A stretch of 7,363 bases of DNA from Tardiphaga sp. (GTDB lineage Bacteria; Pseudomonadota; Alphaproteobacteria; Rhizobiales; Xanthobacteraceae), in assembly GCA_028290765.1 (NCBI GenBank), contig JAQGJF010000551.1:1-7363 (forward strand), in the 5' to 3' direction. The translations under genes and the position numbers were made by a program. Positions 976 through 7,363 of the stretch are shown piece after piece (the first letter of the stretch is position 1; each line of letters starts with the position of its first letter). The notes under the pieces are model-generated. The model saw nothing but the letters and a program-made list of their open reading frames with translations, ran no database searches and had not been told where the DNA came from.

Positions 976-1452
976 ATGCCCAGGAATCAGCGGCCGGTGC
1001 GGGCCAAATTATTCAAACGGCCCGGATTTCTGATCCGGCGGCTGCACCAGATCTACGTTGCGATCTATTTCCAGAACTGCGAGCGCTTCGGCACGACGCC
1101 GGTTCAGTCCAGCGTCATGCAGGTGCTGCTGGCGCAACCGGGCATGGATCAAGTCGCATTGGCCGCTGAGATCGGCATCGACCGCACCACGGCGTCGAGC
1201 GTGCTGACCCGGCTCGAAGCGCGCGGCATCATCAAGCGGCAGGCCGATCCGCAGGACCGCCGCACCAAGCTGGCTTTTCTTACCGCATCCGGAAAGGCCA
1301 TGCTGCAGGACATGCAGGCGTCGATCGAGGCGGCGCACAAGGAACTGGTCCAGCCGCTCGATCCAGCGGCGCGCGATCAATTTCTCGAACATCTGCTCTG
1401 TCTGGTTCAGGCTAACAACGACAGGGGCCGGTCTTTGCTGCGCGACCTGTGA
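976..1452 (+). CDS. MarR-family transcriptional regulator
   Basis: A 158-residue winged-helix regulator, close to the usual MarR length of 140-160. MarR proteins are dimers that bind palindromic DNA and usually release it when a small, often aromatic, ligand binds. The N-terminal helix (about 15-38) and the C-terminal helices (about 106-158) would form the dimer interface. The helix-turn-helix is at about 57-83 (VALAAEIGIDRTTASSVLTRLEA contained there), followed by the wing with the typical DPQDRR at 91-96 and the LTxxGK motif at 102-107. The ATG at 976 is the best start; GAGG and GGAC lie 5' of it at modest spacing. It is divergent from the PhnD-like gene and upstream of the importer operon, so it is the likely local regulator of both. 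The ligand is unknown; by analogy it could be the imported substrate or its hydrolysis product. Confidence 0.92.
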   Translation: MPRNQRPVRAKLFKRPGFLIRRLHQIYVAIYFQNCERFGTTPVQSSVMQVLLAQPGMDQVALAAEIGIDRTTASSVLTRLEARGIIKRQADPQDRRTKLAFLTASGKAMLQDMQASIEAAHKELVQPLDPAARDQFLEHLLCLVQANNDRGRSLLRDL

Positions 1453-1669: not shown

Positions 1670-2704
1670 ATGAACCCTGCCTCTTTTTTCAAGCCTGCGC
1701 GCCGCTCCCTCGCGTCTCTCGGCGCGGCCGCCGGCATGCTGCTGGTCGCGGCGACGATCGGCGCCGGCGCCGCGCGCGCCGAAGTCAACGAGCTCAGGAT
1801 TGCCCGCCAATACGGCATATCCCACCTCGCCATGGCCCTGATGGACCAGCTCCAGCTGTTGCAGCGCCAGGCCGAGAAGGCCGGGCTCAAGGACCTCAAG
1901 GTGACATGGAGCCGCTTCAGCGACGGGCCCGGAATGAACGAGGCCCTGCTCTCGGGCAATCTCGACGTCGCCAATGGCGGACTGACCGCCCTGATCGTGC
2001 TGTGGGACAAAAGCAAGGGGGCCTATGTCGGCCTGTCCGCCTTAAGTTCGATGCCCGCGGTGCTGATGACCCGCGACCCCGCGGTCCGGAGCGTGAAGGA
2101 TCTCAAGGAGAGCGACCGGGTTGCGGTGGTCTCCCGCGTGTCGATGCAGGCGATCATCCTGCGCATGCTGGCGGCGGAGGCTTACGGCAAGGACCAGTTT
2201 GCCAAGCTCGACCACCTCACCGTTCCACTGCCGCATCCCGACGCCATGGCGGCGATGCTGTCCGGCCGCAGCGAAATCACGGCGCATTTCACCGCGGCGC
2301 CCTATTACGAACAGGAAGCGGCCAACGGGGCCAACCGGGCGCTCAGCTCCTACGGAATTCTCGGCGGACCCGCCACCTACAGCGTGGCCTGGGCGTCGAA
2401 GAAATTCATCGAGCAGAATCCGAAAACCACCGGCGCCGTCCTCGCCGCGATCGAGGAAGCCACCGCCATCATCAAGAGCGACCCCCGGCGCGCGGCGGAA
2501 GTCTATCTGAAGGCTGAGACATCGTCGCTGAGCCCCGACGCGATCGAGGCCATGATCAAGGAGCCCGAGAACGTCTTCACCACGACCCCGCAAAACGTCA
2601 TGAAGTTCGTCGACTTCATGACGGCGACCGGAAGCGTCACGTCGCGTGCCGCCAGCTGGAAAGATCTCTTCACCTCGCTGATCGCCGACAAGCCCGGCAG
2701 TTGA
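1670..2704 (+). CDS. ABC transporter substrate-binding protein, NitT/TauT (NMT1/THI5-like) type
   Basis: A 344-residue periplasmic binding protein that would capture the substrate and deliver it to the permease encoded downstream. It begins with a clear signal peptide: KPARR near the N terminus, a hydrophobic stretch of Ala/Gly/Leu/Val (about 18-34) and cleavage after ARA at 37. The mature part starts with the ELRIARQYG strand (41-49) and continues with features of the SsuA/TauA/ThiY fold, including a GNLDVANGG-like segment near residues 99-107, where the family binds ligand. An in-frame TTG at 1637 would add 11 residues, but the ATG at 1670 is preferred because the signal peptide then has normal length and the palindrome upstream stays outside the gene. 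The ribosome site is weak. The ATPase gene starts 11 bases after its stop. The ligand is unknown; family members bind sulfonates, nitrate, pyrimidines, riboflavin or aromatic acids. Confidence 0.88.
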   Translation: MNPASFFKPARRSLASLGAAAGMLLVAATIGAGAARAEVNELRIARQYGISHLAMALMDQLQLLQRQAEKAGLKDLKVTWSRFSDGPGMNEALLSGNLDVANGGLTALIVLWDKSKGAYVGLSALSSMPAVLMTRDPAVRSVKDLKESDRVAVVSRVSMQAIILRMLAAEAYGKDQFAKLDHLTVPLPHPDAMAAMLSGRSEITAHFTAAPYYEQEAANGANRALSSYGILGGPATYSVAWASKKFIEQNPKTTGAVLAAIEEATAIIKSDPRRAAEVYLKAETSSLSPDAIEAMIKEPENVFTTTPQNVMKFVDFMTATGSVTSRAASWKDLFTSLIADKPGS

Positions 2705-3339
2705 TCGCAGCCGCCATGATGAACCAGCCTGCGATCTCCGGTGAGGCGGCGCTGTTGAGCGTCGACGACGTCACGCTGCAGTACAAGACGCCGCAGCATC
2801 TGGTCACCGCCACCTATCGGGTCGACTTCGGCGTTCGGCAGAGCGAACGCTTTGTCATTCTGGGTCCGTCAGGCTGCGGAAAATCGACCCTGCTGAAGGC
2901 GGTCGGCGGCTTCATGGCGCCGGTGTCGGGGTCGATCTCCATCGGCGGCACCCCCGTTACCGCGCCGGGGCCGGAACGGATGATGGTTTTTCAGGACTTC
3001 GACCAGCTGATGCCGTGGAAAACCGTGCTTCAGAATGTTGCCTTTCCGATGCGCGTGACCGGAAAATTCAGCCGCAAGGAGGCCGAAAGCCGGGCGCTGT
3101 CGATGATCGATCGGGTCAGGCTGGCGGCGTTCCGCGATGTCTATCCGCACATGCTGTCGGGAGGCATGAAGATGCGTGTCGCGCTGGCGCGCGCCCTGGC
3201 GCTGGAGCCGGACATCCTGCTGATGGACGAGCCGTTTGCCGCTTTGGACGCGCTGACGCGGCGGGAAATGCAGCAGGAGCTGCTCGGCCTTTGGGAACAA
3301 TTGCGCTTCACGATGCTGTTCGTCACCCATTCGATCGAG

Positions 3340-3342
3340 TAG
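3340..3342 (+). other. In-frame amber codon inside the ABC ATPase gene
   Basis: TAG stands where the family normally has the second Glu of the HSIEEA motif just after the switch histidine. Frame, codon use and family similarity are unchanged on both sides, with no insertion or deletion, so one base substitution explains it. Confidence 0.85.
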
Positions 3343-3528
3343 GCGATCGTCATCGGATCGCGCATTCTGGTGCTGTCGCCGCATCCGGGACGCGTCCGCG
3401 CCGAACTCGACGCGTCGCGGTTCGGCTTCGACGACATCGATAGCCCGGCGTTCGGCGCGCTGTCGAAGCGGATTCATGCCCTGCTATTTGATGAGAAATC
3501 CACCATGGCGGCGAAAGAACTGGCTGCG

Positions 3529-3534
3529 AAAGGA
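3529..3534 (+). promoter_or_regulatory. Ribosome binding site of the permease gene
   Basis: AAAGGA lies five bases before the permease ATG at 3540, inside the last codons of the ATPase frame. The permease can therefore recruit ribosomes by itself, although the ATGA overlap also suggests coupling to ATPase translation. Confidence 0.55.
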
Positions 3535-3539
3535 CCGTT

Positions 3540-4430
3540 ATGACCCAGCCCGTCGACATCAGCGCGCTCGACGCGCCGGTCCGCCCTGATTTCGAGCGCG
3601 AGCCGATCGATGCGTCCGGCATCGGCGACGTCGCGCGACCGCTTGGCTTGTTCGAACGGATCGGCAACAACGATGCGTTCCGCCGGTTGGTGATCCTCGT
3701 CTGCCTCGGCCTGATTTGGCAGTTCTACGCGAGCTGGATCGACAATCCGTTGATCCTGCCGACCTTCGCGGCGACCGCCAAAACCTTTTACGCCGACCTG
3801 ATCAATGGCGTGCTGATCGACCGGGTCGCCACCTCGCTGCGCTCGCTGCTGCTCGGCTATGTGAGCGGATTGCTGCTGGCCACCCTGCTGACGACACTGG
3901 CGGTATCGACGCGGATCGGGTCGGACTTGCTCTCGACGCTGACCGCGATGTTCAACCCGGTTCCGGCGATCGCGCTGTTGCCGCTGGCGCTGATCTGGTT
4001 CGGCCTTGGCGTGCCGTCGCTGGTCTTCGTCATCGTCCACTCGGTGTTGTGGGCGGTGGCCTTGAACACATTGACCGGCTTTCGCAGCGTGCCGGAGACG
4101 CTGCGCATGAGCGGCCGCAACTATGGCCTGCACGGCATCAAATACGTCGCGCTGATTCTCATCCCGGCCGCCTTTCCCTCGATCCTGGCCGGTCTGAAGA
4201 TCGGGTGGGCGTTCGCCTGGCGAACGCTGATCGCGGCGGAACTGGTGTTCGGCGTCTCGTCGCGCTCGGGCGGGCTGGGCTGGTACATCTTCGAGGCGCG
4301 CGCCGAACTCGAGACCAGCCGGGTGTTCGCCGGCCTTCTCGCCGTGATCATCATCGGGCTTGCCGTCGAGGCCGTCATCTTTCGGCTGATCGAGCGCCGC
4401 ACCGTGCTGCGCTGGGGCATGCAGCGCTAG
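3540..4430 (+). CDS. ABC transporter permease, NitT/TauT (SsuC/TauC-like) type
   Basis: A 296-residue inner-membrane permease of the BPD_transp_1 family that would form a homodimeric channel for the substrate delivered by the upstream binding protein. A hydrophilic N-terminal segment (1-48) precedes hydrophobic segments at about 50-66, 104-122, 138-155, 158-177, 222-240 and 263-283. The cytoplasmic coupling loop is visible at about 190-220: the usual EAA triplet is replaced by MSG, but the conserved Gly196, the ILIP at 206-209 and the AFPSILAGLKI segment that follows are kept, so it should still dock on the ATPase. The ATG at 3540 overlaps the last codon of the full-length ATPase frame by four bases (ATGA) and has its own AAAGGA site. 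The gene is intact, but with the ATPase frame ending early at 3342 translational coupling would be lost. Only one permease gene is present, as is normal for this importer type. Confidence 0.92.
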   Translation: MTQPVDISALDAPVRPDFEREPIDASGIGDVARPLGLFERIGNNDAFRRLVILVCLGLIWQFYASWIDNPLILPTFAATAKTFYADLINGVLIDRVATSLRSLLLGYVSGLLLATLLTTLAVSTRIGSDLLSTLTAMFNPVPAIALLPLALIWFGLGVPSLVFVIVHSVLWAVALNTLTGFRSVPETLRMSGRNYGLHGIKYVALILIPAAFPSILAGLKIGWAFAWRTLIAAELVFGVSSRSGGLGWYIFEARAELETSRVFAGLLAVIIIGLAVEAVIFRLIERRTVLRWGMQR

Positions 4431-4475
4431 ACCGCCCCGTCAATTCCGACCCATAGACCTCGCCGAAAATATCCG

Positions 4476-4481
4476 AAGGAG
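4476..4481 (+). promoter_or_regulatory. Ribosome binding site of the amidohydrolase gene
   Basis: AAGGAG, eight bases before the ATG at 4490, is the strongest Shine-Dalgarno sequence in the window. It fixes the start and suggests the enzyme is made at a higher level than the transporter parts. Confidence 0.75.
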
Positions 4482-4489
4482 ACAACGAG

Positions 4490-5980
4490 ATGCGGACGCT
4501 CATCAAAGCCCAATGGATCGTGGCGCATAACGGCCGCGGGCATACCCTGCTGCGCGACGGTGTCGTGGTCTATGAAGGCCGGAAGATCATTCACGTCGGC
4601 AAGGCTTTCGAAGGTCACGTCGACCGGGTAATCGAGGCCTCCGACAAGCTCGTCTGTCCCGGCTTCATCGACACCCATGTCCATTCCGGCCACCGCGCCT
4701 CGCACCGGCTGATCACGGATTCCGGTCGGCCGCTCTATTTCGGGCAGCCGTTCCTCGAAATCAGCGTGCCGAAAGAAGGCCGCGTCGTGGCCGGTGACCC
4801 GCGATATCTCAAGCCCGGCGACCAGGCCGTCAGCGCGGCGCTCGAACTCAACGCGCTTTTCACCGTGGCTGAATTGCTGCGCAACGGCGTGACCACTTTC
4901 GTCGAGTTCGGCAGTCAGGAAAGCGTCCAGCTGGCGCTGCTGAAGCAGATCGAACGCTTCGGGACCCGGGGTTACCTCGGACCCGGTTATGATTGCGGAC
5001 GCTGGGTCGGCGACTCCAGCGGCGGACTGAAGCGCCTGCATGACCCGGAGGGTGGCATGCGGGGCCTGAAAACCGCGGTCGACTTCATCCGGTCGCATGA
5101 TGGGGCGCTGGACGACCGGATCCGTGGCCTGCTGGTGCCGCGCGAAGTCGAGACCTCGACGGTGGAACTGCTTCGCGAGACGCTGCGCTGGGCCGACGAG
5201 CTGAAGGTGCCGATGGCAACCCACGCCGCCTATAGCGTGCTGGAATTTCACGACATCGTTCGCGAGCACCAGATGACGCCGATCGAGCTGCTCGACGAGG
5301 TCGGCATGCTGCGCCCGACCCTGAATATCGGCCATGGCAACCTGATCGCCGACAACGCCAACCTGAACTATTCGGGAGCGCGCGACCTGGCCTTGATGGG
5401 CGAGCACCACTGCTCGATCTCGCATTGTCCGATCAATATCGCGCGGCGCGCCCGCACGCTCGACAATTGGGAGCGCTACCGCAAGGCCGGCGTCAACATC
5501 TCGATCGGCAGCGACACCTATCCGCGCGACATGATCATGAACATGCGCACCGCCTCGCTGATGGGCAAGATCATGGGCCATGACTACTACAAGGCTCCCG
5601 CCGGCGAAGTGTTCGAAGCGGCCACACTCGGCGGCGCGCGCTCGCTCGGCCGCGACGATCTCGGCAGGTTGTCGGAGGGCGCCCTGGCCGACATCCTGAT
5701 CATCGATTTCGCCGGCAGGAATTCGCTGCGGTATGGGCCCGTGCGGGATCCGATCAAGAGCCTGGTCGAGTGCGGCGTCGGCGACGACATTCACACCGTG
5801 ATCGTCAATGGCGAGGTGTGCATGGAAGACGGCGTGGTGCCCAACCTCGATATCGCCGGACTTCGCGACCAGGCGCAGGCGGCAGGCGAGCATGTCTGGT
5901 CGACGCTGCAGGACTGGGATCCTCGCGGCCGGACCGCCGAACAGGCCAGTCCATGGTCGTTCCCGCTGCATCAGGGCTGA
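4490..5980 (+). CDS. Metal-dependent amidohydrolase, COG0402 (cytosine deaminase / chlorohydrolase-like)
   Basis: A 496-residue cytoplasmic TIM-barrel hydrolase of the amidohydrolase superfamily, similar in layout to cytosine deaminase, SsnA and AtzA/TrzN. The N-terminal strand domain (1-56) leads into PGFIDTHVHSGH (57-68) with metal ligands His63 and His65. Further expected ligands are His245 in ATHAAYS, His282 in IGHGNL and Asp342 in IGSDTYPRD; SHCP (311-314) is also present. The C-terminal composite domain includes GALADILIID (397-406) and a VIVNGEV strand (437-443). In deaminases of this group the metal His is followed by a catalytic Glu (HxxE); here that place is Tyr248, so ordinary deamination cannot be assumed. 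It lies 59 bases after the permease with an excellent ribosome site, probably in the same operon, and so may process the imported compound. An amide, amidine, ester or halo-heterocycle substrate is possible; none can be named. Confidence 0.88.
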   Translation: MRTLIKAQWIVAHNGRGHTLLRDGVVVYEGRKIIHVGKAFEGHVDRVIEASDKLVCPGFIDTHVHSGHRASHRLITDSGRPLYFGQPFLEISVPKEGRVVAGDPRYLKPGDQAVSAALELNALFTVAELLRNGVTTFVEFGSQESVQLALLKQIERFGTRGYLGPGYDCGRWVGDSSGGLKRLHDPEGGMRGLKTAVDFIRSHDGALDDRIRGLLVPREVETSTVELLRETLRWADELKVPMATHAAYSVLEFHDIVREHQMTPIELLDEVGMLRPTLNIGHGNLIADNANLNYSGARDLALMGEHHCSISHCPINIARRARTLDNWERYRKAGVNISIGSDTYPRDMIMNMRTASLMGKIMGHDYYKAPAGEVFEAATLGGARSLGRDDLGRLSEGALADILIIDFAGRNSLRYGPVRDPIKSLVECGVGDDIHTVIVNGEVCMEDGVVPNLDIAGLRDQAQAAGEHVWSTLQDWDPRGRTAEQASPWSFPLHQG

Positions 5981-6103: not shown

Positions 6104-7363
6104 ATGTTCGTTCTCGACGCGATCCGATTTTGCAGCCGCAACACCCCCTGGCCGAGCGCAAGCCTGACGGCGCTATGGTTGTTCACCATCACCGCTCAAC
6201 CGTGTCTTGCGGTCGAGCCCGCGGCGAATAACGGACCGATCCCGCCCGCGGCGTGCAAGTCGCAGCCCACCATCTTCTTCGGCGCCGGTTTGAATATCCT
6301 GTGCGACAAGCGAGTTTCCTCCGGCATATTCTTGGGCTCGTATCTTTCGCAGGCAGCGGACAGCGTCGACGATTGCGCCAAGCGATGCTCGGCGAACGAC
6401 AAATGCAAGGCTTTTTCGCTGGACAATCGAGAACCGCCGGCAAGCCGTGTCTGCACACTGTTTGGATCGGCCGAGCGCTACAGCGACGCAAAAGGCTGGG
6501 TCGCGGGGATGCAGGCCGGTGCGGCCTTCGGGGTGCCGCGATCGCCCTCTTCTCTTCATAATCTCGACAGACCCATCGGCGGCCTCATCGGGAACATCGT
6601 TGGCGGCCTCGCGAGACCTCTGGAATTCCCCAAGACCGATCACAATACCAGCGGCGGCGGCCCCATTGCGCTGACGCCCGATATGAAAGCGCTGCAGCCG
6701 GTCTTCTTCGCGACCGACCGCACACGGGTGCAGGGCGCGGCGGTCGAGGCGTCCTTCGAAGCCGGACGGGATCCGGACATCACCTATGGCCAGGCGATCA
6801 TCAGCATTCCGAAAAACCATGACATCGGCAATGTCGAGCGACCGAAACATCGCTTTCTCTGGTTCGGTTCCCAACCGGAAACCGATGCGGATCATTTTCG
6901 GATCAAGGGCATCGCGTGGCTCGACCGCGGCGTGTTCGTCGACCAGCTGAAGGGCGGCGCAGACAGCGTTCTGCTGTTCATTCACGGATACAATGTTTCG
7001 TTCGCCGATGCGGTCTACAAGGCGGCCCAGATCGCCTACGACGCCAATTTCGCCGGCACGGTACTGGCGTTCTCGTGGCCGTCCGCCGCTGCCCTGTTCA
7101 AATACGATGAGGATCGCGAGAGCGCGGAATTCGCGGTACCGCATCTGGCACAGACCCTTCGGCTCTTGACCGACGAGATCGGCAAGAAGAACGTCTATAT
7201 CGTTGCCCACAGCATGGGCAACCAGGTGCTCGTCAACGCACTGCAGCAGTCTGCGCTCAGCGGGAAAGATCTGGCGATCACCGAACTGGTGATGGCAGCT
7301 CCCGACGTCGACAAGGACGTCTTCGGCACCAAGGTGGATCAGATCCGTTCGGTCGCCAAGAAC
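6104..7363 (+). CDS. Exported PAN/Apple-like plus DUF900 alpha/beta-hydrolase protein (partial, runs off the right end)
   Basis: The frame is open from the ATG at 6104 to the last base, giving 420 residues without a stop; the C terminus lies outside the window. An in-frame TGA at 6095 makes 6104 the earliest ATG; GGGGTGATGG before it is a poor ribosome site. A signal peptide is likely: hydrophobic LTALWLFTITA (21-31) with cleavage after CLA at 36. Next comes a cysteine-rich part (Cys51, 67, 91, 95, 101, 117) with DDCAKRCSANDKCKAFSLD (89-107), which resembles PAN/Apple domains used in carbohydrate or protein binding. After a Gly/Pro-rich linker (about 140-190) a DUF900-type (COG4782) hydrolase domain begins at VFFATDR (200-206). 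It has the HGYN oxyanion loop (294-297), the FSWPS strand (323-327), nucleophile Ser370 in AHSMGN and acid Asp401 in APDVD. The catalytic His is not reached. Probably a periplasmic or envelope esterase-like enzyme; the substrate is unknown. It is probably not part of the importer operon. Confidence 0.85.
   Translation, partial: MFVLDAIRFCSRNTPWPSASLTALWLFTITAQPCLAVEPAANNGPIPPAACKSQPTIFFGAGLNILCDKRVSSGIFLGSYLSQAADSVDDCAKRCSANDKCKAFSLDNREPPASRVCTLFGSAERYSDAKGWVAGMQAGAAFGVPRSPSSLHNLDRPIGGLIGNIVGGLARPLEFPKTDHNTSGGGPIALTPDMKALQPVFFATDRTRVQGAAVEASFEAGRDPDITYGQAIISIPKNHDIGNVERPKHRFLWFGSQPETDADHFRIKGIAWLDRGVFVDQLKGGADSVLLFIHGYNVSFADAVYKAAQIAYDANFAGTVLAFSWPSAAALFKYDEDRESAEFAVPHLAQTLRLLTDEIGKKNVYIVAHSMGNQVLVNALQQSALSGKDLAITELVMAAPDVDKDVFGTKVDQIRSVAKN

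Follow-up and report, generated by a model that had tools for sequence, protein, structure and literature searches.

The operon and its genes

The window, that is the whole stretch of 7,363 nucleotides which was analysed, contains between positions 976 and 5980 the genes of a MarR-family regulator, a substrate-binding protein, an ATPase, a permease, and an amidohydrolase in this order (Table 1). The same order is kept at positions 4156 to 9215 of the locus L001, which belongs to Bradyrhizobium sp. dw_78, the nearest named relative. The ATPase is 82% identical to its L001 counterpart before an in-frame stop codon and 72% after it, and the proteins of the other genes are 81 to 87% identical. Around 13 other loci which were compared, within the DNA available for them, no match at E ≤ 1e-3 was found to the MarR gene or to the amidohydrolase.

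Table 1: Features of the window related to the interrupted ATPase gene.
Positions	Strand	Feature	Evidence
976..1452	+	MarR-family regulator	PF01047, E 2.5e-13; 81% identical in L001, beside the operon there too
1670..2704	+	NMT1-like substrate-binding protein	PF13379, E 4.4e-14; SsuA_fam, E 1.8e-25, below cut-off
2716..3339	+	NitT/TauT-type ABC ATPase, 208 amino acids ahead of the stop	PF00005, E 4.6e-30
3340..3342	+	TAG within the ATPase frame (codon 209)	Glu in 119/120 homologues, Glu codon in 74/74 distinct loci
3343..3543	+	Other 66 codons of the interrupted ATPase and TGA	63/66 identical to P0001
3529..3534	+	AAAGGA, Shine-Dalgarno-like, five bases ahead of the permease ATG	
3540..4430	+	Importer permease, ending with TAG at 4428-4430	PF00528, E 1.2e-13; relative P0121 97% identical
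4490..5980	+	Amidohydrolase / chlorohydrolase-family enzyme, uninterrupted	NF004801, 536 bits, cut-off 416

The initial annotation had described the amidohydrolase as intact, which is borne out by its uninterrupted frame and by an NF004801 score above the cut-off. With 536 versus 416 bits the enzyme passes the NCBIfam threshold of the chlorohydrolase family PRK06151. The combination of an importer with this enzyme suggests, as judged from the gene content, uptake and subsequent deamination or dechlorination of a compound resembling an N-heterocycle. Two further genes flank this region. A phosphonate-binding-like protein (PF12974) is encoded on the minus strand at positions 14-943, for which no evident partner was found among the other proteins of the window scanned for domains, and a PAN domain fused to a DUF900 alpha/beta hydrolase occupies positions 6104-7363, where it is cut by the end of the window.

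The interrupted ATPase gene

The ATPase frame starts with the ATG at position 2716, meets the TAG at codon 209, and then stays open for 66 more codons up to the TGA at positions 3541-3543; this TGA and the permease ATG at position 3540 share bases in an ATGA. Without the TAG the frame would encode a NitT/TauT-type ATPase of 275 amino acids. Translated with the standard code from the ATG at position 2716 it yields 208 amino acids, which falls short of a complete nucleotide-binding domain of about 250–290 amino acids. The alignments show GPSGCGKST (residues 50-58), Gln93, LSGGM (147-151), ILLMDE (167-172), and His205 ahead of the stop, which correspond to Walker A, the Q-loop, the signature, Walker B, and the H-loop, respectively; the D-loop is present as well. 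An ABC_tran domain (PF00005, residues 36-175) is thus present together with Walker A, signature, Walker B, and H-loop, and the gene lies in an operon with an NMT1-like binding protein and a BPD_transp_1 permease. The signature, encoded at window positions 3154-3168, is LSGGM in all 27 aligned relatives as well; the usual ABC signature is LSGGQ.

When the part before the stop was compared with NCBIfam, the best models were those of taurine, nitrate (ntrCD), and SaoA ATPases, with scores below the curated cut-offs. The window ATPase stays under the cut-off of each of the best 25 of 183 NCBIfam models, as does the relative P0001. The residues following the stop (AIVIGSRILVLSPHPGRVRAE...) line up with the ATPase family, which excludes a chance open frame and identifies both parts as one interrupted gene. 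Including the part before the stop, identity to P0001 amounts to 203 of 208 residues before and 63 of 66 after the TAG; the 66 residues match a second close relative, P0002, at 57 positions. The ATPase gene of the window is therefore an interrupted copy, and its description from the sequence as a gene intact except for one stop, without frameshift, is confirmed by the 66 family-like open codons which follow this stop. A stop could equally arise from any of 69 other single-base changes among the remaining 274 codons, so the position of the TAG at codon 209 is unremarkable.

Codon 209 in related sequences

Of 7999 scored proteins, the best 120 were compared with the window ATPase. At residue 209 these have Glu in 119 cases and Ala in one, so that the glutamate initially expected at the position of the stop was correctly chosen. 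The homologues range from 252 to 293 amino acids in length, and none of these best 120 is shorter than 252; a short relative would rank lower. P0001 and P0002, which are 98% and 97% identical to the window protein over the first 208 residues, are both uninterrupted and 275 amino acids long, which makes the stop private among the sequences examined and absent from close relatives, as would be expected of a recent nonsense allele.

The same picture emerged at the DNA level. Codon 209 is GAG in 42, GAA in 24, ATG in two, and GTC in one of a first set of 72 loci, with three left unaligned, and it is GAG or GAA in all 53 loci of a second set (L073-L125). Removal of 36 loci with less than 60% identity, 14 duplicates, and one which did not reach residue 150 reduced these 125 loci to 74 distinct ones, of which 48 have GAG and 26 GAA. 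None of the 74 carries a premature stop or ends before residue 259. Stops were seen in two of the first 72 loci, in one case ahead of the start and in the other beyond the conserved part, and in seven of the 53 loci L073-L125, there at query residue 259 or 266. A search of 265 genomes gave a match at E ≤ 1e-90 in 155, and many matches were flagged as containing stops. In 26 flagged ones among the matches listed, all outside the 125 loci above, the stops are confined to the first two codons or to the stretch beginning with the 253rd, which are natural gene ends, and at codon 209 GAA occurs 18 times and GAG eight times. The initial annotation had named relatives which all end where the window ATPase does as a refuting outcome; none of the 120 proteins and none of the 74 distinct loci does so.

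No other record carrying this TAG was seen, and no identical protein was among the best 120 of either protein search, in a database clustered at 90% in which a truncated sister sequence may be hidden. A sample of 391 genomes from the family of the relative G001, in which the closest DNA is 78% identical, contains no near relative at the DNA level. With regard to an ATPase which might act as a substitute, G001 itself has at least 11 matches at E ≤ 1e-50 (150 of 207 candidates scored), its own orthologue and at least 10 others. Part or all of the region 2500-4600 is matched by 900 plasmid records, 28 at 80-90% and 872 at 60-80% identity and none above 90%. One plasmid record covers at least 80% of this query, at an identity of 70.8%.

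The sequence following the stop

Codon 209 apart, three residues are unique to the window ATPase, five to P0001, and 13 to P0002. After the stop lie two of the three, one of the five, and seven of the 13, respectively, numbers which are too small to be weighed. Compared with L001, the part before the stop has a dN of 0.153, a dS of 0.856, and a dN/dS of 0.18, and the part after it a dN of 0.165, a dS of 1.058, and a dN/dS of 0.16 (NG86); with dS values around 1 this estimate approaches saturation, and the comparison reflects a long history which is unable to date the stop. The third-position GC content is 0.73 after versus 0.83 before the stop, a minor difference. The 66 codons following the stop hence show no clear sign of decay against P0001, P0002, or L001, and, on these small numbers, no relaxed selection. 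Judged against P0001 and P0002, the stop looks recent. The initial annotation had offered a recent change, a sequencing error, or tolerance by readthrough or suppression, and a private stop followed by 66 codons without clear decay is in line with the first two.

Predicted structure of the truncated protein

In the structure model the elements lost after residue 208 are a helix at 207-213, strands at 216-220 and 227-232, and helices at 244-258 and 261-271. The 208-amino-acid product would thus lack the helix and the two strands directly after the H-loop as well as the C-terminal helices, so that the loss of the end of the nucleotide-binding domain, anticipated from the sequence, is reproduced by the model. 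In alignment, the chains of NrtD and CmpD cover 246-248 model residues, starting at residue 10-12 and reaching residue 261-263, which makes the tail part of the fold of solved relatives. AlphaFold assigns the 208-residue fragment a confidence as high as that of the full protein, a result which is uninformative on stability.

In a study on BmrA, removal of the whole C-terminal helix left neither ATPase nor transport activity (PMC11774805), and the window ATPase loses more than a C-terminal helix. The outermost piece of this helix was described there as dispensable (PMC11774805), so part of the lost ATPase tail may not matter. Because of the missing helix, strands, and C-terminal helices the 208-amino-acid ATPase is probably unfolded or inactive.

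Permease and downstream genes

The permeases of the window and of L001 end at the same residue, in both cases with TAG, and TAG therefore very probably works as a terminator in the operon. If this codon were read through, the permease would be 66 codons longer in the window and eight codons longer in L001. TAG is also the final codon of the ATPase gene in three of the 74 distinct related loci.

In L001 the putative permease start, the first ATG in this frame near the junction, is found two bases past the ATPase stop, and the overlap of the two genes is therefore probably not conserved. The amidohydrolase ATG is preceded by GAAGGAG. Independent initiation of the downstream genes is likely. The proposed loss of translational coupling to the permease is accordingly a weak point of the initial annotation, as the permease has an AAAGGA of its own and the overlap is probably not conserved. 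Transcriptional polarity across the 198 untranslated bases is possible.

Origin of the stop codon

On balance, and by a narrow preference, a private and very recent nonsense change in the ATPase gene with loss of the importer is considered the probable explanation. A single-base change would have turned Glu codon 209 of the ATPase into TAG within a conserved operon for an importer, the TAG would be read as a stop, and the 208-amino-acid product would be unfolded or inactive, so that the importer would presumably be lost, with permease and amidohydrolase still translated from their own ribosome-binding sites. Observed in this scheme are the stop, its absence from the relatives examined, the intact remainder of the gene, and a TAG terminator in the operon, whereas a real base, an inactive product, and a lost importer are inferred. 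A base error in the record explains the DNA with the TAG equally well as a real allele. Sequencing or assembly error, with the TAG confined to the record and the gene uninterrupted in the organism, is somewhat doubtful as an explanation but has to be taken seriously: there is one substitution, no second lesion, and no clear sign of decay over the next 66 codons, the close relatives P0001 and P0002 are uninterrupted, and the missing identical protein among the best 120 of either search may point to a low-coverage metagenome record. A substantial fraction of raw in-frame stops is expected to be artefacts, according to a survey of such stops (PMC7918605). On the other hand the other four genes of the operon all align as open frames with their L001 counterparts, and this part of the record thus shows no visible richness in errors; the outer two genes of the window were judged solely as open frames with domain matches. 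Either way, nonsense change or error, the TAG looks like an ordinary event which calls for no new mechanism.

A real TAG might also be tolerated if near-cognate misreading or an amber-suppressor tRNA provided some full-length ATPase, which appears unlikely. The 66 codons without clear decay would fit this explanation but are expected of any recent change, and the stop, which would be conserved in relatives if readthrough were programmed or due to suppression, is found in none of the 74 distinct loci and 120 proteins, thus giving no sign of upkeep by selection. An RNA fold of positions 3310-3420 no better than that of shuffled sequences (z -0.06) was counted against readthrough as well, and within the window Rfam yielded nothing at gathering score and no tRNA was present. 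The base after the TAG is G, a favourable context in an E. coli reporter study, where readthrough of TAG lay between that of TGA and TAA and tyrosine, glutamine, or lysine was inserted (PMC11126739). In-frame stops are described as widespread in bacterial genes, usually among nearly identical sequences, with many argued to be no pseudogenes and many keeping a dN/dS below 1, in the survey (PMC7918605). A maintained allele, in which leaky readthrough of the TAG followed by G would cut the ATPase output and tune the importer at the population level with the enzyme fully expressed, is quite improbable. The reading of TAG as a sense codon by this organism can practically be dismissed: the frame staying open under this assumption is the only point in favour, and the common TAG end of the window and L001 permeases and the three of 74 related ATPases ending with TAG contradict it. 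The nearest named relative, Bradyrhizobium sp. dw_78, uses the standard code, which also speaks against it. An ATPase which is short by nature and functional with about 208 amino acids is hardly conceivable; it would have the catalytic motifs as far as the H-loop, but none of the best 120 of 7999 scored homologues is shorter than 252 amino acids, none of the 74 loci stops before 259, and in the model the fold loses strands and helices.

Relation to known systems

From the NitT/TauT-type importer ATPases TauB, SsuB, NrtD, and CmpD the window copy differs by its end after residue 208, and caution is advised against its annotation as a working importer. It resembles the in-frame nonsense alleles of Belinky et al. 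2021 (PMC7918605) in having a single stop in a conserved gene without clear decay, and in the absence of this stop from slightly more distant sequences. Unlike the stops of this set, which were required in orthologues of at least two species, the stop of the window was seen once. If reads showed the TAG to be common in the population, the gene would become a small natural case for the tolerance of bacterial in-frame stops by readthrough.
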